Translations under genes and position numbers: made by a program
The notes under the pieces: model-generated
Databases searched by the model: none
What the model was told of the DNA's origin: nothing
Seen by the model: only the letters and a program-made list of their open reading frames with translations
DNA from: a virus
DNA: 32,071 nt
Reading direction: 5' to 3' (one strand)
IMG/VR virus record: IMGVR_UViG_3300013132_000151
Coordinates: 1 to 32,071 of that record
Shown here: positions 16,724-30,742 of the stretch, one piece after another
Layout: every line of letters begins with the position of its first letter
Position numbering within the stretch: the first letter of the stretch is position 1

Positions 16724-17425
16724 TTATAGTCTGTTCAATGTAAATGTACTTAGATCGCTTGATGCTTGACTTTGGGTTGACGAATATGTATCTGCAAATG
16801 CGTATTGAGATTTTGTTCCAGAGAAATGTGAATTAATGAGTGTTGGATTATACTTTTGTACCTTACCACCATCATCTGATACGAAGTTAAGAGGAAATTT
16901 ATTTTTAGTGCTACTTTGGGTTATAGTAGCATCGTCGTAAAAGATAGCACCATTTCTTATCACTTGCACAGCATCGGTTGCAAGTAATTTTCCTTTGTAT
17001 TTTGTGGAAATAGCAATGTTATCTGTAGAATCTGTTAATCTTTGTATAGAAGTTATTACAAAAAAATTATTAGTCGGATCAAAAAATGATCCTACTTTTT
17101 TAACAATAATATCACCGACCTGTAAATTAGGAAGAGCGTTTAAAATATAATAAACAGAATTTAATTCTTTAGTAATAAAGTATTTTGTTTTTGGTAAATC
17201 TGATTTTGGATTTACGATCTTTGATTTTTGCAATATTTGAAAACTTCTATTTGGATCTCCATATTTTGCATAAGAAACTTGTTCTGGTGAAAAATATTCA
17301 GATGGACTAAAAGATTCTTCCACCACATTTGGTAATTTAATCTTACCAAAGATATCTGCTATTTTGATATCTTTATTACCTTCAATTTTTGACAAAGTAA
17401 AAGTATTTTTGATATTAAGTTTCAT
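16724..17425 (-). CDS. 53: gp53-like baseplate wedge protein
   Basis: In T4 gp53 clamps adjacent wedges together and carries a LysM-like domain. Here AKYGDPNRSFQILQKSKIVN (53-72) aligns with the T4 segment in which a small residue, Y, G, N/D, P and a hydrophobic I-L core precede an N-x-x-x-x-P. The protein starts near MKLNIKNTF and has 233 residues against 196 in T4. The C-terminal third is beta-rich and Ser/Thr-rich at the very end. Start and gp48-like stop share a base (TAATG), placing it in the wedge and tube operon. The motif match is short, so the call is moderate. Confidence 0.6.
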   Translation of the reverse strand: MKLNIKNTFTLSKIEGNKDIKIADIFGKIKLPNVVEESFSPSEYFSPEQVSYAKYGDPNRSFQILQKSKIVNPKSDLPKTKYFITKELNSVYYILNALPNLQVGDIIVKKVGSFFDPTNNFFVITSIQRLTDSTDNIAISTKYKGKLLATDAVQVIRNGAIFYDDATITQSSTKNKFPLNFVSDDGGKVQKYNPTLINSHFSGTKSQYAFADTYSSTQSQASSDLSTFTLNRL

Positions 17426-18186
17426 TAGCCTATTCCTGCTGCAATTTCAGACTTGCTTCTGATACCACCAAGAGCACCGGGAACTCTTGTACCGGGTTCA
17501 AATTCCATAAAGGTCAATGACAGTCTAGTGGCTACTGGACTTCCGTCTATTCTATAACGAGGAACATAAGCATCCTGCTGTGGAATAGGGCTTACTGCAA
17601 CCGCAGCCAATACGCAAACTAGAGGCTCTTGTAGCCATTGAGAGGTTACTTTATAATTATTGCCAGCTATTCTCCACAGAGGTGGTGGATATGCCTTTTC
17701 TGGAACTCCACCAGTAACTGGATAAGACATAGTATTAAATAAATCGCAAATGGACCACACAACATCGGCTTCCTGAGCATTCTTTGGGACAAATAGATAT
17801 TGAAATCTAAATTGCCGTCTGGCTTCTGCTAATAACGCCAATTCAGTAATATTTGAAAATCTTCTGTACGTTTCCGTGGCAACTAATGGCTCCACAAAGC
17901 CAAAGACAGAAGATGCTATGCGCTCGGTCAAAGCCAATGGACCACCCGCATTTGCCATACCAGCAACGCTAAGGTGGGGACCAACAAAGCTGAGTTCTTC
18001 ATTGAATGTATGATTTGTTTCTAGATCATAGTTCATAGGCAACGGCAATATGACCGTTTCGACAGCTCTAGAAGCCACTCCAGCCCTAGTTCTATTCTGT
18101 GCTCGGACTGAGTAATCGGCAGCAGAAAAGTAAATCCAGAATGGATTTTCGGCTGCATATGCTAATGGATATCTATAAACTCCCAT
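17425..18186 (-). CDS. 48: gp48-like baseplate/tail-tube cap protein
   Basis: gp48 is the layer at which the tail tube is initiated on the baseplate. The 253-residue protein has the order of segments seen in gp48 relatives: MGVYRYPLAYAAENPFWIYF, a short VILPLPMNY segment at 45-53, FRFQYLFVPKNAQEADVVWS at 126-145 with an EA-x-x-V helix, then PPPLWRI and a closing block VPRYRIDGSPVATRLSLTFM ending in EFEPG. The last block, G-x-P-x-x-x-x-L-x-L-x-F-x-E, is a shared feature of tube-like baseplate proteins. It heads the minus-strand block, and its start is only 20 bases from the start of the gp4 gene on the other strand. Confidence 0.75.
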   Translation of the reverse strand: MGVYRYPLAYAAENPFWIYFSAADYSVRAQNRTRAGVASRAVETVILPLPMNYDLETNHTFNEELSFVGPHLSVAGMANAGGPLALTERIASSVFGFVEPLVATETYRRFSNITELALLAEARRQFRFQYLFVPKNAQEADVVWSICDLFNTMSYPVTGGVPEKAYPPPLWRIAGNNYKVTSQWLQEPLVCVLAAVAVSPIPQQDAYVPRYRIDGSPVATRLSLTFMEFEPGTRVPGALGGIRSKSEIAAGIG

Positions 18187-18206
18187 GCTTTATGTATAGA
18201 TATTGT
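18187..18206. promoter_or_regulatory. Head-to-head start region between gp48 and gp4
   Basis: Only 20 bases separate the gp48-like ATG (minus) from the preferred gp4 ATG (plus). On the minus strand the octamer TATACATA (18198-18191) is one mismatch from the T4 late promoter TATAAATA; on plus, TATAAACT (18174-18181) has two mismatches. If used, both would give very short or leaderless messages. No Shine-Dalgarno is visible on either side. This is a weak candidate, offered because the region must hold or overlap the start signals of two divergent blocks. Confidence 0.3.
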
Positions 18207-18644
18207 ATGCCGTATAAAACAAAAATTTTGCTTTCCAATCCCCATAAATACATGGGTGGAACTACGCATGTTTATACGAAATCCTTGTGGGAAAGAAAGT
18301 TTTGTAAATATCTAGACGAGACTGCAACCGTCAAAAAGTGGGGATATGAAAAAATTAAAATTCCATATCTTTCTCCCATTGACAAAAAAGTACATACTTA
18401 TTTTCCAGACTTCATAATTCTGACAGAAGAAAATGGTAAAGAACAAGTCTTCATAATAGAAGTCAAGCCAGTTAAACAAACAAAAAGTCCTGAGAAGAAA
18501 AAAAAGGCTACAAAAACTTATATGGAAGCAAAGATTCAATATTTAGTTAACGAAGCCAAATGGAATGCTACTAAGGTTTTATGCGAAAAAAATAATTGGA
18601 AGTTCAAAATTTTAACAGAAAAGACGCTATTCAATGCAAATTAA
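18207..18644 (+). CDS. 4: Head completion protein gp4-like (TnsA-like nuclease fold)
   Basis: gp4 helps close the packaged T4 head and is related to the TnsA endonuclease family. Visible features are LLSNPHKYMGGTTHVYTKSL, WERKFCKYLDE, IKIPYLSPIDKKVHTYFPDF, then IIEVKP: a PD...E-x-K catalytic arrangement with Asp at 68, Glu at 85 and Lys at 87 of the chosen start. I prefer the ATG at 18207 (MPYKTKILLSNP, 145 residues; T4 gp4 is 150), because relatives begin close to this KY/NPHKY block. An in-frame ATG at 18192 adds five residues, and the frame stays open further back into gp48 on the other strand. The last bases overlap the next start. Confidence 0.88.
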   Translation: MPYKTKILLSNPHKYMGGTTHVYTKSLWERKFCKYLDETATVKKWGYEKIKIPYLSPIDKKVHTYFPDFIILTEENGKEQVFIIEVKPVKQTKSPEKKKKATKTYMEAKIQYLVNEAKWNATKVLCEKNNWKFKILTEKTLFNAN

Positions 18645-19213: not shown

Positions 19214-19885
19214 ATGTCATATTTTGAAAAAAGATTACCAAAGTACAAAGCAAAATTACTAAATGGCAAAGAACAATATTTCAGACCATTCTTAGTAAAA
19301 GATGAAAAAAATCTTGCGATCATAAAAGAAGAATCCAGAAATGATCTAGTAATCAAAACTGTGATGGATTTAATTAATGATTGTTATGATATGCCACTCA
19401 GTCCTAAAGCTGAACTCGCTTTAGTGGAACAATGCTTTTTATTTCTAAGAGCAAAGTCGATGGGAGAACAATTAGATCTAGAAATAACTTGCCCGACTAC
19501 TCAGGAAAAGCACAAGATCAGTCTTAATGTTTTAGATCATAAGATAAGTCTCATTGAAGGCAAGACTTTAATGATTGGTAATGGAGAAGTAGTTACCTTT
19601 GAAAGTATTAAAGCCAAAGATTGTATCTCTTCGGAGCTTACAGTCGAAGAAAAGGTTGCTTTACATATTAAATCATTTGAAAAACAAGATGAGTATTTCA
19701 TTATGGATAATCTTCCTCTTGAGGAAAGAGTTGAAGTTCTTAAAAATTTAAAAATCGATGAATACAATAAAATAAAGTATTTTATAGAAAATAATCCAGA
19801 AATTTATTTTGAAGTTGGCTACACAACTTCTGATGGAGTTTCAAGAACAGCAATTATTGGAGAACATCTGCGTTTTTTTTCTTAA
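19214..19885 (+). CDS. 26: gp26-like baseplate hub/tail assembly protein
   Basis: The 223-residue protein belongs to the T4 gp26 family (Pfam T4_baseplate): YFRPFLVKDEKNLAIIKEE (22-40), then a block of helices and the LFLRAKSMGEQLDLEITCPT segment near 75-95. T4 gp26 has 208 residues. In related phages this protein acts during hub and tail assembly. A GAGGA ribosome binding site sits seven bases before the ATG. Its last codons run through a stretch of eight T bases (19873-19880) directly before the TAA, and the -1 frame after that run is open and shows a gp51/chaperone-like tail (see the next entries). The normal product stops at 19885. Confidence 0.85.
   Translation: MSYFEKRLPKYKAKLLNGKEQYFRPFLVKDEKNLAIIKEESRNDLVIKTVMDLINDCYDMPLSPKAELALVEQCFLFLRAKSMGEQLDLEITCPTTQEKHKISLNVLDHKISLIEGKTLMIGNGEVVTFESIKAKDCISSELTVEEKVALHIKSFEKQDEYFIMDNLPLEERVEVLKNLKIDEYNKIKYFIENNPEIYFEVGYTTSDGVSRTAIIGEHLRFFS
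19873..19879 (+). promoter_or_regulatory. Candidate -1 ribosomal frameshift site
   Basis: Zero-frame codons here read CGT TTT TTT TCT TAA. The heptamer T TTT TTT fits the X-XXX-XXX slippery pattern, so tRNAs could re-pair one base back with no mismatch and continue as TTC TTA ATT, giving FFLILDSENL. A stop immediately follows the site in frame zero, as in many frameshift cassettes. I did not find an obvious stimulatory hairpin within 20 bases. The alternative is that the true genome has one T fewer or more and the two parts are one gene. Confidence 0.6.
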
Positions 19886-20079
19886 TTCTCGATAGTGAAA
19901 ATTTAGTAGATAAGTATGTAAAATTTTTCAATCTTATCTACAAACATGATCTTCCGCTATCCGAGATTGAAAGAATGATTCCATGGGAACTTGATGTTTT
20001 CATATCACAAATCAAAGCATATCAGACGGAGAAAAAACTTAAAGCAGCATCAGCAAAAGGATATAACGAATTATCATGA
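19879..20079 (+). CDS. -1 frame extension of gp26, chaperone/gp51-like tail
   Basis: After a -1 slip the message encodes 66 more residues: FLILDSENLVDKYVKFFNLI, then a helical block with IERMIPWELDVFISQIKAY, ending NELS before the TGA at 20077-20079. The total fusion would be about 288 residues. No start codon in this frame precedes the first 30 residues, so independent translation is unlikely. The TGA overlaps the next ATG in an ATGA, as for other gene junctions here, which argues that the frame is real. The motif MIPWE-x-x-(V/I), in a short helical tail after a gp26-like body, resembles C-terminal parts of tail assembly chaperones (lambda gpG-gpGT logic). Whether it equals T4 gp51 is uncertain. 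Confidence 0.65.
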   Translation, partial: FLILDSENLVDKYVKFFNLIYKHDLPLSEIERMIPWELDVFISQIKAYQTEKKLKAASAKGYNELS

Positions 20080-20843
20080 ACGAAGAACCTAAGCCAACCA
20101 ACTTCTTTAAAATGATCCTCACTGAGACATCTTCAAAGCCAGAAGATGACACCAATCTATTGGAAAAGGAAAAGGAGCAACTATTAGAAGATCTTGATAA
20201 TAAAAAAATTACTCAAGAGGCTTATGATAAAAGACTTCAGGAGATAGAAACTGAACTCGCAAATAAAAAATCTAGCTACAAGACTGAAGCCAAACCAGTA
20301 AAAACTACTAATGATGTTACTGGTGAAAAAAATGAAAAAGAAGAAGCATCAAATGAAAAGGTAACTGAAGTTGTACCAAAAGAGATTGAGGAAAAAACTC
20401 CACCCCCTCCGAAGATCAAAGAAGCTAAAGTAAAAACTAAGGAGAAGGAATTATCGGTACAAGAAAAGAAAGAGCGTCAGGCTGAAAGGAATATGCCTGA
20501 GCAAGACAAGATCAAGGTTGAAACTAGATCTGAACAGCTTTCAGTTTACGAGCAAAAGGAAGACCTTGAAGAAGTCGTTATGCAGAAAATTCAGGAATTG
20601 AAGACAATTCAATCCGGAAATCCTATTAAGATCAATCAAGAAAAATTTGATCCACAGCAACTTATTTCAGATAAATCAGAGGCTGCATCAGCACCCACAA
20701 TTCCCGCCATTCTTGGTCAAAGACCAATTCAACCAAACCGTAATGAACAATCAACCCGGAGCCTCAATAGTATTGGCGACTCCGGGTTGATATTGCAGTT
20801 ACAAAAAGTTCTTGACGTTAGCTGGAGAAATTTAAGTTATTAA
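20076..20843 (+). CDS. Charged coiled-coil protein, unknown function
   Basis: The 255-residue protein is dominated by Lys and Glu. Residues 27-66 form a heptad-like helix (LLEKEKEQLLEDLDNKKI and LQEIETELANKK), followed by a disordered Lys/Glu/Thr/Pro region (TPPPPKIKEAKVK) and a second short helical block near 160. No catalytic motif is seen. The start overlaps the -1 frame gp26 extension in ATGA, with an AAGGAT ribosome binding site upstream. The stop overlaps the convergent gp32 gene by four bases. The position after gp26 suggests a tail or hub assembly role, for example as a scaffold-like protein, but this is inference. A strong hairpin lies in its last 90 bases (see terminator entry). Confidence 0.75.
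   Translation: MNEEPKPTNFFKMILTETSSKPEDDTNLLEKEKEQLLEDLDNKKITQEAYDKRLQEIETELANKKSSYKTEAKPVKTTNDVTGEKNEKEEASNEKVTEVVPKEIEEKTPPPPKIKEAKVKTKEKELSVQEKKERQAERNMPEQDKIKVETRSEQLSVYEQKEDLEEVVMQKIQELKTIQSGNPIKINQEKFDPQQLISDKSEAASAPTIPAILGQRPIQPNRNEQSTRSLNSIGDSGLILQLQKVLDVSWRNLSY
20751..20790. terminator. Hairpin inside the coiled-coil gene, probable gp32 terminator
   Basis: Perfect 11-base arms TCAACCCGGAG (20751-20761) and CTCCGGGTTGA (20780-20790) flank an 18-base loop that holds a smaller CAATA/TATTG inner stem. The stem lies about 50 bases past the gp32 stop on the minus strand, and on that strand it is followed by TTGTTCATTA, a modest T-rich tail. It could end the gp32 message, and may also act on the plus strand. 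It is encoded inside the last codons of the opposing gene because no intergenic space exists. Confidence 0.55.
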
Positions 20844-26375: not shown

Positions 26376-26543
26376 ATGGACAAGCAAGAATTAAAAGAAT
26401 CTCTTCTGACATTAATCAAAAAAGCGCATTCTTGCATTGATATATACGAAGACTATCTTTTAGAAACAAAAGACTGGCGCGCGCTGGCCAATGAAATGAA
26501 GACTCTAAGAGATACAGTTGAAAAAATTGAAGCTGAACTATGA
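26376..26543 (+). CDS. Small helical protein, 55 residues
   Basis: This short frame encodes MDKQELKESLLTLIKKAHSC and continues with IDIYEDYLLETKDWRALANE to end KIEAEL. The whole is predicted helical, with one tryptophan. It lies three bases after the stop of the WYL_2-type gene, and its TGA overlaps the ATG of the 1400-residue gene in ATGA. Those two junctions match the coupling seen throughout this operon, so I judge it a real gene despite its size. Function unknown. Confidence 0.65.
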   Translation: MDKQELKESLLTLIKKAHSCIDIYEDYLLETKDWRALANEMKTLRDTVEKIEAEL

Positions 26544-29500
26544 CCTTTTTATCTACTTGCTGCTGCGGATCTACTAAATCTCCACCACCACCCCCAACTG
26601 GATGCCCAGATGTTTGCTGTAGTAGCTGCATGTGGGGGGATAGAATAACAGCTTGGTCCGGCAATCCAATTGATCCAAATGATGATTTAGTCTTATATCA
26701 AGGTATTGATGTTGGTGCATCGCCAGTAGATTCAACTTTAAATAATCCTTTATTTAAATTTGAGTATAAAAACATGGGAGCATATTGGATTTGGTGGAAT
26801 CCTTCATACATGCTTAACTATACGACAAATGTTCCAGAATGCGAATCTACAGAATTTGTTAGTGCTTCACAATTTGGTGGACCGGGAAATGAAACTGATT
26901 CGCCCGGCTCAAATCTACATAGAAGTAGAATAGCACAAGGTGATAAATGCAGTCATACATTGATACCAAATCAATTTGATGAAGGTAATGATGCAGCTAG
27001 TGAAGATGGATTTGAGGGCGCGGTGACGTATTATGGCGGGGGTAAAGATCCAACGCAGAGTGGATTTGCAGCGTTTTTCACTACGCTAAAAGAGGGAATA
27101 GGTCGGGGAGCCAATTTCTTTGAAACTTTCTTTTTTACAGGAACATTACCCGGCCCCGCTGTTTCTGGACCTTCAAAGGAAGTTGGATATCCTTGCTCAA
27201 CAGCGTCAGAGGACAGCTGCTGTGTAGTCGCTAATATTGCAGATAATGCCGGATATGGTGCTGAAGAAGTAAGAAATTATTGCACTAAAATGGGCGTATC
27301 TCCATATAGAAGAAGAATAATGAAGGAACATTATCCATGGGCGTGGCAAATATTTTCTTATAATGAAGGTGACCCATATCCATTCACAACGCCTGTAAAT
27401 TATTTTTCACAAGGACAACCATTAACAGAACCAAGTGGTTTTTTAGAAGGTGGGATTTATAAAACACCTCTAAGAGCACAAATTTTAGCATTTATTCAAT
27501 GCGAACATCACTGGGGATTAGGAGAGGCCAACGCATGTTATCCTGATTTGGGTGATTTGCAAATTACATTTCCTTTAAGTTATATCATACCGAGAAGATT
27601 TATTTACGGATGCTCTGCAATACCGTTTTTTGAATTTGATATTGATGAATTTATTCTTGAAGATCCATCTTCGGCAGTTTTTTTCGATAAAGATAGTTTA
27701 ATTACCTTTATGCGTTCTTTTACTGCATTCTTTGATAATCCGATAGGAAATTTTGCACCATTCCCAGATCAACCGTATCCAGATGGAACAGCTATTTATT
27801 TTGTTCGTGAATATATTAATGAACTTACAAGAAGAAGATTTCAAAATATCTTAGTTAAAGATTGGAGACAGGAAGCTTACGAAGAAATTATTATAGCTGA
27901 AAGTTATTATAGAGAATCATTTGGCTTAACTGGTATTACTTTTGATCTTTTCGGAGAATTAGAAATTGAAAGACCTGTACCAATAAATGGAACTTCTGCT
28001 GAATTAATACAATCTTTTAGAAATTTGCCTGAGTATGAACGATCTAACTATATTGAAAAATCATTCCCCTTGCCATTAGGACCTGTTCGCAAAAGACGAA
28101 GAGCTTTATCCGTAAATGGATTATTTGATCAATTAGAAGGAAATGAATTAGTAAATGTATTCATGCCGTTTGATATTAATGAAATAATATCAAATTTTAA
28201 TCCAGATGCAGAATGCATGTTCAAAAATGATAATGGTGACGTAAATGAAGAATTAAAAAATTTACAAGCCATGAAATATGTAAATGTCTTTGAACCTATT
28301 AACAAAATTTGGGATACAAGTTATCCAGATGACGATGAGCCGACAAGAAATGCAAGGAAAATAGGATTAATAGCAAAGTTATCACAAATAACTTATACCT
28401 ATATGCTTGTACAGCCCGGAAGATGGGAATTTGCGGCATGGGGGCAGGGATTAGTTCAACAAGCAGGCCCACCACCAACTACCGGAGAACCTGATGACGC
28501 AGAACCAGATGAAACTGGCGGCGCATTCAATACACTTTCCAGACCCGAAAATAATTGGTTTTTTAGAAAATATGGATATGTGCAAGGACCAGAAAGTTTA
28601 TTAGAATGGCCTTCTTTTTCAAGAGTGTTAGCACACTCGCAAATTAATAATTGCACAACTCCCGTTGATGGAGATAGAGGAGACTTTGATTTTGCGTGGA
28701 ATCCGGGAACGAACTGTATAAGGGATGGCTGCATAACTCCGGATTCTGGACCGATTGAAGTTGGATGGGTTAATGATCCTTATTGTGGAAGATCAACTTA
28801 CTCACAACACCCAGATGTATTTTTAGGAACTCATAGCAACCCAGTTCAAGTTATTAACGACAGCAATCAACCATGCCCCGGTGGCGGAACTGAACAATAT
28901 TTTGAAGTAAGACCAGCTGGAAGAAATGAAGTGTCGTTTGTGAGATATCAAAGCAAAGACATGAAATGGGATACAACAGTAGTTCCGCATAGAGTAATAG
29001 AAAGAACAGAGGAAGAAAAAGAAGATTATAAAAACACTACTTTTAGTGTTGCATTAACAAAAACAAGAGATAATTGCCAGATATGTTGGGGACAGCCTTG
29101 TTCTTCTACTAATGAATATCTTTGGAATAAAGAAGAATATAAAGCCTTTAATGCTGCATGCTCCCCCTCTCCAGATGTAAGTTTTACATTTACATCTGAT
29201 TGTGCTGGAGTTTTTGTAGAAATAGGCACTCCAAGTGCTCCAGCAACACAAATACCTTATAATAATGACATTGATGTTATTTCTTATGATTTTGGTTGGT
29301 ATGGACCAATAGCATTTAGACGAACGAATCCATACGACGTTCCCGATGATGTTTTTGGATTTAATGTAGAACCAGTAACATATGAATGTGATGATACAAT
29401 TCAATATGATTTCTGCGAAAACACTAATGTGCAAGTTCACAGAGCAATTACAGCGCAAGGCGATCAAACACAATGGCCTTATGGTTTGCCGCCACAAAAA

Positions 29501-30742
29501 TTTTGGGAAGCCGCTCCATCCTATCCGTATAGTATTCCATATGCAAATTTTACTGGAATGTTCAATTCTGAATGTTGCGAATTAGTAAGTAAATGTGGAG
29601 GATGTGGTACATCTGTAAATTTTGATGAAAATTGTCAAAATATTGCATCGATTTGGTGTAGATCTCCAAAATATCCGCAAGAAGCATTCAAAGATTGGGT
29701 AGAAGCAGGTAAGCCTCCAGTTTTTGATTTTGGTCAATATGATGCTGAAAAGGGTATGGTTTTAGCATTTTCAAGTGCATTCTCGGGAAGACGGGATTTA
29801 AGCCCTGCTACTGGTGCTCCGGATATAACAACAGGACAAGATGGTTATGACAATATTCCCGCATCATATCTAAATTCTTTAAGTATTACAGAAGAATTTG
29901 ATTCTGTCGCTCCATCCCCATATCCGTTTGGTGGAGTAACATGGGGATTATGTATTCCTGATCATAATAATCAATTAATTTATACATCTGATAATCAATT
30001 TGATTGTTCAAATATTTTATTTAATGTAACTGAAGAACAATTAAATTTTATAGGAATGACAAACAATGCAATGATTAACAGATATAAAGGTAATTTTTGT
30101 GCATGCGGTGGGTTTTTTACACCAGTTTTAGAAGGAATTGTATTACCTAAAGAATCTTGTTTAGCTAGTGACATAGGAACAATACAATCAATTGAATGTC
30201 AGTCGGGGCCATCGACTTATAATTATGGCGAATTTGAAAGTCAATTAAATAATCCTCGCACAGAACACCATTACATTTGCAATTATATTGCGATATCTTT
30301 ATGTGCTGGACTAAAATTATTTAGTGATGGGCTGGGTAAATTTAGAAATATAGATGCACCTTGCCAATTAAATACATCATTATATAATGGTGTTACATGT
30401 AATAACACCAATGATTATCTTGTTAATCGATTGTGCTATGTTGCACCTGATCCAGATGATTATACTCCCCCGGATATAATTGTTTATTGTACTAATATTG
30501 GTGGTGAGCTATGCTTTGATATTACAGATCCTAGTACTTTTTTGGATACCGAGACAGGATGCTGTAGAAATTGTTTAGATGGACTTGACCCAGTTTCTGA
30601 GAATGTCAATTATAATTGCAGTGATTGTGGTGGTCTTAATATATTTGTTCACGAAAATGCCGCAAATCAACAAGGAAACATTGATTTTGCAAACTGGGCA
30701 AGAGAACAAAATCTTATTGGTTGCTGGAGAATTAAGCAATGA
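26540..30742 (+). CDS. Giant cysteine-rich protein of unknown function
   Basis: The 1400-residue protein opens MTFLSTCCCGSTKSPPPPPT, with cysteines at 7, 8, 9, 22, 26, 27 and 30 and a five-proline run. Cysteines continue as clusters through the chain, for example EDSCCVV, ECCELVSKCGGCG, NFCACGG and near the end GCCRNC followed by NCSDCGG. There is no signal peptide or transmembrane segment. It contains many aromatic and Pro-rich stretches and no recognised catalytic motif. Such a cysteine content is unusual for a phage protein that matures in the cytoplasm; metal binding or post-release disulphides are possible. A large adhesin or fibre-type virion protein is the best guess. It overlaps its neighbours at both ends in ATGA. 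Confidence 0.85.
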   Translation: MTFLSTCCCGSTKSPPPPPTGCPDVCCSSCMWGDRITAWSGNPIDPNDDLVLYQGIDVGASPVDSTLNNPLFKFEYKNMGAYWIWWNPSYMLNYTTNVPECESTEFVSASQFGGPGNETDSPGSNLHRSRIAQGDKCSHTLIPNQFDEGNDAASEDGFEGAVTYYGGGKDPTQSGFAAFFTTLKEGIGRGANFFETFFFTGTLPGPAVSGPSKEVGYPCSTASEDSCCVVANIADNAGYGAEEVRNYCTKMGVSPYRRRIMKEHYPWAWQIFSYNEGDPYPFTTPVNYFSQGQPLTEPSGFLEGGIYKTPLRAQILAFIQCEHHWGLGEANACYPDLGDLQITFPLSYIIPRRFIYGCSAIPFFEFDIDEFILEDPSSAVFFDKDSLITFMRSFTAFFDNPIGNFAPFPDQPYPDGTAIYFVREYINELTRRRFQNILVKDWRQEAYEEIIIAESYYRESFGLTGITFDLFGELEIERPVPINGTSAELIQSFRNLPEYERSNYIEKSFPLPLGPVRKRRRALSVNGLFDQLEGNELVNVFMPFDINEIISNFNPDAECMFKNDNGDVNEELKNLQAMKYVNVFEPINKIWDTSYPDDDEPTRNARKIGLIAKLSQITYTYMLVQPGRWEFAAWGQGLVQQAGPPPTTGEPDDAEPDETGGAFNTLSRPENNWFFRKYGYVQGPESLLEWPSFSRVLAHSQINNCTTPVDGDRGDFDFAWNPGTNCIRDGCITPDSGPIEVGWVNDPYCGRSTYSQHPDVFLGTHSNPVQVINDSNQPCPGGGTEQYFEVRPAGRNEVSFVRYQSKDMKWDTTVVPHRVIERTEEEKEDYKNTTFSVALTKTRDNCQICWGQPCSSTNEYLWNKEEYKAFNAACSPSPDVSFTFTSDCAGVFVEIGTPSAPATQIPYNNDIDVISYDFGWYGPIAFRRTNPYDVPDDVFGFNVEPVTYECDDTIQYDFCENTNVQVHRAITAQGDQTQWPYGLPPQKFWEAAPSYPYSIPYANFTGMFNSECCELVSKCGGCGTSVNFDENCQNIASIWCRSPKYPQEAFKDWVEAGKPPVFDFGQYDAEKGMVLAFSSAFSGRRDLSPATGAPDITTGQDGYDNIPASYLNSLSITEEFDSVAPSPYPFGGVTWGLCIPDHNNQLIYTSDNQFDCSNILFNVTEEQLNFIGMTNNAMINRYKGNFCACGGFFTPVLEGIVLPKESCLASDIGTIQSIECQSGPSTYNYGEFESQLNNPRTEHHYICNYIAISLCAGLKLFSDGLGKFRNIDAPCQLNTSLYNGVTCNNTNDYLVNRLCYVAPDPDDYTPPDIIVYCTNIGGELCFDITDPSTFLDTETGCCRNCLDGLDPVSENVNYNCSDCGGLNIFVHENAANQQGNIDFANWAREQNLIGCWRIKQ

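Follow-up and report, generated by a model that had tools for sequence, protein, structure and literature searches.

What is made from a gp26-like gene that ends in a run of T just ahead of its stop codon, in front of a -1 frame that stays open for another 66 residues? Our analysis of the window, the whole 32,071-nt stretch of viral DNA in IMG/VR record IMGVR_UViG_3300013132_000151, makes it very probable that this locus encodes the tail assembly chaperone (TAC) of a T4-like myovirus, expressed by -1 programmed ribosomal frameshifting (PRF) as a short form, TAC-N, and an extended form, TAC-NC. This reading draws on sequence, frame selection, conservation, homology and fold resemblance, from which we infer the slippage itself, its rate, the effect of its stimulators and the chaperone role.

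All elements of the locus lie on the plus strand. The gp26-like gene (19214..19885) encodes the putative TAC-N of 223 aa, and its 3' end reads CGT TTT TTT TCT TAA. Here, the slippery heptamer T TTT TTT (19873..19879) is contained in a T8 run (19873-19880) and positioned one sense codon ahead of the zero-frame stop TAA (19883..19885). In the -1 frame, no stop intervenes between 19834 and a TGA at 20077-20079. After a slip, the first codon of the new frame would be 19879-19881, and translation would proceed through F(19879)LILDSENL...NELS, that is, the 66 residues plus TGA of a gp51-like C-terminal domain (TAC-C, 19879..20079), yielding a fused protein of 288 residues (222 + 66). The TGA overlaps the start of the next gene (20076..20843), ATG 20076, as ATGA; this gene encodes a charged protein of 255 aa, for which searches of Pfam and PHROGs gave no convincing family. 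Direct reading of the window bears out what had been described from the letters in the sequence-only reading: the ending with T8 before the stop, the 66-residue open frame with its ATGA overlap, and a tail that has no start near its beginning, the first possible one being ATG 19975. The position from which that reading had counted the feature, 19862, falls inside gp26; coding in the new frame starts at 19879.

The surroundings of the locus are those of a T4-like morphogenesis region, with homologues of terminase subunits, Hc2, a head-tail adaptor and a baseplate wedge subunit, as well as of the tail tube, tail tube cap, head closure, an ssDNA-binding protein and a late transcription regulator. 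The tail-tube homologue is found directly upstream of the gp26-like gene (phrog_45, E 1.7e-17). A PHROGs profile search identified no tape-measure gene in the window; in HTVC008M, a putative tape-measure gene follows the tail with one gene in between. With an identity of 22-28% between its gp26 and that of 12 cyanophages and pelagiphages, the window is, on this measure, a distant and divergent T4-like lineage.

Several other features of the region deserve mention in their own right. A 108-nt block (18143-18250), identical to that in the contig L005, spans the region where two divergent genes overlap at their starts (17425-18186 on the minus strand, 18099-18644 on the plus strand), contains an ATAAATA motif at 18243 and is perhaps a promoter region. 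The gene at 18099-18644 matches phrog_218, 'head closure' (E 1.5e-47), and also the Pfam N-terminal domain of TnsA-like endonucleases (E 1e-17), such that this head completion protein looks nuclease-like by sequence. A Cys-rich ORF of 1400 aa at 26540-30742, without a PHROGs match at E 0.01, is perhaps a structural protein of the lineage.

What, then, are the two parts of the putative fusion? The gp26 body matches the Pfam family PF12322, T4_baseplate, with E 1e-24 and 87.9 bits, passing the gathering cut-off of 24.5, and the baseplate hub family phrog_150 with E 3.5e-29. The -1 tail has no match in Pfam at E 0.1, and is similar to phrog_634, the 'baseplate hub assembly catalyst' gp51 (E 3e-10, profile positions 58-117 of 121). 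Substantiating a coding function of this tail is its comparison between the window and L005, which are 17.7% diverged here: the changed codons are 17 synonymous and 4 non-synonymous in the -1 frame, versus 2/21 and 1/22 in the two alternative frames. This pattern argues for protein-level selection on the tail, whose open frame, judged by these substitutions, is not a product of chance. A precedent for the joining of both parts is provided by phage RB49, whose gp26 and gp51 are paralogous proteins (BLASTP E 2e-13). A profile of the body matches RB49 gp26 (E 7e-14) and residues 5-199 of RB49 gp51 (E 1.3e-9), whereas a profile of the tail matches residues 201-250 of gp51 (E 1.1e-6) and gives no match to RB49 gp26. 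Thus, gp26 corresponds to the short form, and gp51 represents the long form in one chain. At the level of sequence, a short protein and a C-terminally extended form are predicted, be it from one gene with a frameshift or from paralogous genes.

A T8 homopolymer in metagenome data might also reflect an error of sequencing or assembly, in which case the two frames would truly be one continuous gene. However, both the T8 and the tail are kept in all eight contigs of the same lineage, which stem from 8 different metagenome records (the pairs L002/L003 and L005/L006 being identical across the whole locus), and the same break with T TTT TTN is present in 19 of 24 named phage records (T6 and RB49 left out of this count), mostly as six T followed by C. 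Given the eight contigs with T8, we rejected such an error, the probability of which appears negligible.

The frameshift reading is further supported by the wider survey. T TTT TTN near the gp26 stop, followed by the same domain in the -1 frame, was found in 209 of the 209 further IMG/VR contigs in which that stop is readable, the last base of the heptamer being C in 163, T in 40 and A in 6. These counts are a sample of the collection, as each scan covered its best 80 loci; the 209 contigs (78 + 131) comprise 205 distinct stretches of 310 nt, with L229 and L236 alike throughout the locus and L117 alike to HTVC008M within the 310-nt stretch. In the first scan, made with a gp26 alignment, 78 of the best 80 loci contain the stop and two do not, and all 78 have the heptamer 0-3 codons before the stop together with the -1 tail, which in L048 and L071 runs off the contig. 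Two later scans, again of the best 80 loci each, gave 160 rows with 155 new locus ids, and dropping 24 repeat contigs left 131. All of these have slip site and tail. In 122, the heptamer is found 0-2 codons before the stop, and of these, three miss the PWE-like motif of the tail: L129 has PWA instead, the tail of L167 is truncated where its contig ends, and that of L183 is divergent. In the remaining 9, T TTT TTC is followed by the stop at a distance of 8 codons (L128, L130, L132, L142, L143, L145, L148, L153, L184). As the spacing amounts to 3 codons in four loci of the first scan (L061, L064, L076, L078) and to 8 in these nine, the end of the short form varies.

How do the exceptions among the named phages fit in? 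In the other five records, NTT TTC (ATT TTC or CTT TTC) takes the place of the heptamer, and the gp51 domain is still in the -1 frame. These belong to Pseudomonas phage Cygsa01, Vibrio phage K397 and three Ackermannviridae (L106, L107, L109, L112, L113), where the domain is annotated partly or not at all. In T6 and RB49, the gp26 slip site is absent, and the -1 frame past the stop belongs to a neighbouring gene, not to the domain. Relatives that encode both parts in one frame with no slippery run, which had been named beforehand as a finding that would speak against frameshifting, thus do exist. They do not refute the model, as T6 and RB49 conform to it by keeping the short gp26 as a separate gene, the paralogous gp51 being shown in RB49. 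The comparison of the junction across relatives, which had been proposed along with the frameshift itself, accordingly came out in its favour, with slip run and -1 frame conserved throughout the 209 further contigs; as far as these genomes can tell, the slip signal is genuine and common among the aquatic relatives of phage T4.

Is the heptamer conserved for its own sake, or for the amino acids it encodes? We collapsed 100 genes at 85% identity to 89, all of which have the heptamer; the 100-gene set left out the five NTT TTC records, T6 and RB49, and its 78 IMG/VR loci had not been selected for the heptamer. In every one of the 89, the codon ahead of TTT has T as its last base, across six different amino acids (S, D, N, A, R, H); from pooled codon use, the log10 probability of this is -21, a guide rather than a p-value since the genes are related. 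The last base of the heptamer is C in 56, T in 27, A in 6 and G in none, and of 19,841 other codon positions in the same genes, 11 show T TTT TTN. In 6 of the 89, a TTA (Leu) replaces the second Phe codon; thus, the protein sequence does not explain the run of T. For a pairwise test, 73 pairs with a nucleotide divergence of 10-30% were drawn from 226 genes, no gene being used twice. In these, the heptamer codons are identical in 143 of 146 cases, compared to a baseline of 0.546 for same-amino-acid codons of the body (P about 1e-33). An in-register X XXY YYZ motif, conserved beyond the need of the amino acids as expected for PRF, is therefore present.

Some codons of the tail stand out as well. 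The codon of the conserved Phe, tail codon 17, is identical in 93% of the 73 pairs, well above the baseline. In cyanophage-type relatives, tail codons 23-25 read CAT AAA TAT, with identities of 0.82, 0.81 and 0.67 against the synonymous baseline of 0.546; as CATAAATA resembles a T4-like late promoter, a late promoter for the next gene may be embedded in the frameshifted domain. Constraint on synonymous sites as a block downstream of the heptamer was not found family-wide in the 73 pairs.

In many cyanophages, gp51 is annotated as a separate short gene with its own start, and the -1 domain might simply be expressed in this way. Among 13 Kyanoviridae-type records, 11 annotate an ORF of 40-61 aa in the -1 frame (of the other two, one has no such ORF and one has no annotation, and none of the 13 annotates a join). 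In 4 of the 11, the annotated start is located 2-3 codons into the tail, so that nearly the whole domain would be made; in the 89 genes, some ATG, GTG or TTG precedes the conserved Phe in 47, an ATG being the first possible start before it in 17. However, the annotated start is 18 codons into the domain in the other 7 of the 11, 42 of the 89 genes have no ATG, GTG or TTG from the preceding -1 stop up to the conserved Phe, and in only 3 of the 89 is a start before this Phe accompanied by SD-like pairing of -4 kcal/mol or better. In the window, the sole ATG, GTG or TTG of the open frame, ATG 19975, sits mid-domain and would leave 34 residues, about half of the domain. Moreover, RB49 gp51 joins both parts in one chain, and a separate start would not need the heptamer. 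We therefore rejected a separate gp51 gene on the start-codon survey and consider it highly improbable.

Frameshift sites may be assisted by stimulators on either side, and upstream of the heptamer we find a candidate in the SD-like GGAGAA at 19859..19864 on the plus strand, the GGAG of which ends 10 nt before the heptamer (anti-SD dG -6.4). Across the family, anti-SD pairing is strongest for 8-mers that begin 16-18 nt ahead of the TTT codon; its mean at -16 is -6.25 kcal/mol, compared to -4.99 in synonymous shuffles and -0.84 over the gene as a whole. The best pairing between -24 and -7 averages -6.51 versus -5.09 for synonymous shuffles (z -10.1, n 89); at loci not used before, a set not collapsed for redundancy, it is -6.9 versus -5.42 (z -13.2, n 131). 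A pairing of -5 is reached in 67 of 89 and in 108 of 131 genes, respectively. In the nine late-stop contigs, the element is weaker (-5.01 versus -4.12), and four of them reach -5. The GGAG of the window is encoded by Gly-Glu, whereas cyanophages encode it by Glu-Gly, which argues for selection on the RNA. Against a selected SD-like element speaks the pairwise identity of the seven codons before the heptamer, which at 0.451 is below the 0.546 baseline. As a candidate 5' stimulator, the SD-like GGAG would probably help slippage through base pairing with the anti-SD of the ribosome during translation.

These observations also bear on whether the ribosome slips at all. RNA polymerase could instead insert an extra U at the T8 run, and the fused protein would result from ordinary translation of such an mRNA; the window and HTVC008M both have a T8, as do 11 of the 89 genes, and slippage in bacteria has been described on runs of 9 A or T, according to the part of PMC5009743 available to us. 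The run is limited to six T in 62 of the 89 genes, though, and to seven in 16, yet the identity of the heptamer codons is kept and the SD-like element is found at a near-fixed distance. Together, these features point to the ribosome as the shared mechanism. With six T in 62 of 89 genes, transcriptional slippage was rejected in this role, in which we deem it improbable; a contribution in the members with T8 is possible.

Assuming frameshifting on the ribosome, does RNA structure downstream of the heptamer contribute? The synonymous-shuffle test of folding covered 84 of the 89 genes, those with the stop more than one codon away being left out. Taken from 2 or 7 codons into the tail, 60-nt stretches fold more stably than their shuffles (z -1.21 and -1.29, n 84); the effect is weaker at 12 and 30 codons (-0.66 and -0.37), and upstream stretches give -0.42 and -0.06. 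Dinucleotide shuffles of the same downstream region give -0.71 to -1.48, with controls at -0.14 to -0.63. The 60 nt after the heptamer of the window itself are not unusually stable (z -0.18). It does have a 9-bp hairpin at 19906..19941 on the plus strand (19906-19914 with 19933-19941), identical in L005 and L007, with a z-score of -4.6 against mononucleotide shuffles for a stretch chosen after the hairpin had been seen. Starting 26 nt after the heptamer, further than is usual for such elements, it would be a possible, if atypical, 3' stimulator. A search of the window with Rfam returned no family at gathering score. We read the downstream folds, as far as the sequences indicate, as lineage-specific, and such a fold may help slippage.

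A 91-nt block over the slip site (19859-19949) is identical between the window and L005. At first sight a large signal, it is exceeded by three identical blocks of 101-108 nt within 6.7 kb, such that recombination or a general constraint may account for it.

What can be discerned from predicted structure about the role of gp26? AlphaFold2 models of the body and of the tail, the latter with three helices, reach pLDDT values of 85.9 and 83.1. In VIA-align, the first entry for residues 1-83 of the body model is the HK97 tail assembly chaperone 2ob9 (Z 7.5, rmsd 3.5, 81 aligned), followed by 3fgx, an uncharacterised bacillus protein, with a Z of 7.4, and then by an entry at 2.8. Best Z-scores of 7-8 are common in VIA-align even for models without a clear relative; here, it is the gap in Z and the identity of the top entry that are telling. 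The predicted fold of gp26 thus resembles that of the HK97 chaperone, with a middling Z that lends support rather than proof. Foldseek alone found no match in the PDB at E <= 0.001, the 50 matches listed being weak, unrelated chains without the HK97 chaperone among them; against predicted viral proteins, it returned many annotated baseplate hub proteins. A search by sequence for a related solved structure found none, entries of BRR2 helicase, with E 0.005 at best, being treated as chance.

Our characterization agrees with a scenario in which most ribosomes would terminate at TAA 19883 to yield the 223-residue TAC-N (gp26), while on U UUU UUU (19873-19879), a minority would slip back by one base and continue for another 66 residues. 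The slipped product would be the 288-residue TAC-NC, with the gp51 domain as its C-terminus. By analogy to gpG and gpGT of phage lambda, TAC-N would bind the tape measure, and the extra domain would recruit tail-tube subunits. The frameshift first suggested in the sequence-only reading is thereby supported by the conserved slip site and -1 tail, and its likening to gpG-gpGT is reinforced by the resemblance to the HK97 chaperone. Its further proposal, that gp26 and gp51 form a frameshift pair in this phage lineage, stands as to the pairing, in view of the profile matches to RB49, but not as a peculiarity of the lineage.

More generally, aquatic T4-like phages may possess a three-part cassette akin to that of dnaX, with an SD-like element about 10 nt upstream, the heptamer U UUU UUN and a lineage-specific fold, which would set the ratio of the chaperone forms by translation and which would have been dissolved in T4-type phages (T6, RB49) by a split into the paralogous genes 26 and 51. 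For this broader proposal, we consider the chances to be even. What our analysis newly adds is modest, namely a survey of this size, statistics at the codon level, the SD-like element and the resemblance in fold.

In outline, a system of this kind is already in print for T4-like phages, to which the window adds a divergent further case. Vladimirov and colleagues are said to have found frameshifting conserved in several T4-like groups, with T4 using genes 26 and 51. As related in the accessible portions of two later papers, their study describes TAC-N genes of T4-like phages with poly-T signals for frameshifting (Vladimirov, Gautam and Davidson, 2022, Virology 566:9, per PMC12846349) and some T4-like phages with a short gene plus a fusion gene (Vladimirov et al., 2022, per PMC10885494). 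As far as these accounts go, the T4-like TAC-N/TAC-NC (genes 26 and 51) and our locus are alike in having short and long forms and a poly-T slip site, with apparently no difference in kind. What sets the window apart is its T8 and the coding of the SD-like element by Gly-Glu instead of Glu-Gly. Phage lambda, with its gpG/gpGT, is a siphovirus, whereas the window represents a T4-like myovirus, and the slip heptamer of lambda differs from T TTT TTT. The frameshift in E. coli dnaX, where the SD spacing is about 10 nt, makes the shorter product, whereas here it would make the longer one. The dnaX cassette is otherwise similar, combining an upstream SD, a slippery heptamer and a downstream fold in the sections of PMC5009743 at hand, whereas here the stimulators are statistical. 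In the same sections, G-T frameshifting is called widely conserved 'except T4' (PMC5009743). The TAC locus of Vandenendeviridae and Andersonviridae, exemplified by phage Adele, likewise has a conserved -1 frameshift, with GTTTTT at the end of TAC-N, in different phage families; the excerpts of that report mention no SD element (PMC12846349). A search of titles and the starts of abstracts, with Vladimirov et al. (2022) outside its scope, found no description of an SD-like element at the gp26 slip site, for which we claim no priority. Finally, the frameshift reading sheds light on an older observation. In the available text of a study from 2010, cyanophage gp51 has only about 20% of the length of other gp51 proteins and lacks about 200 N-terminal residues, which is left unexplained there (PMC3037559). 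The short cyanophage gp51 would be the frameshifted end of gp26, not a truncated gene.
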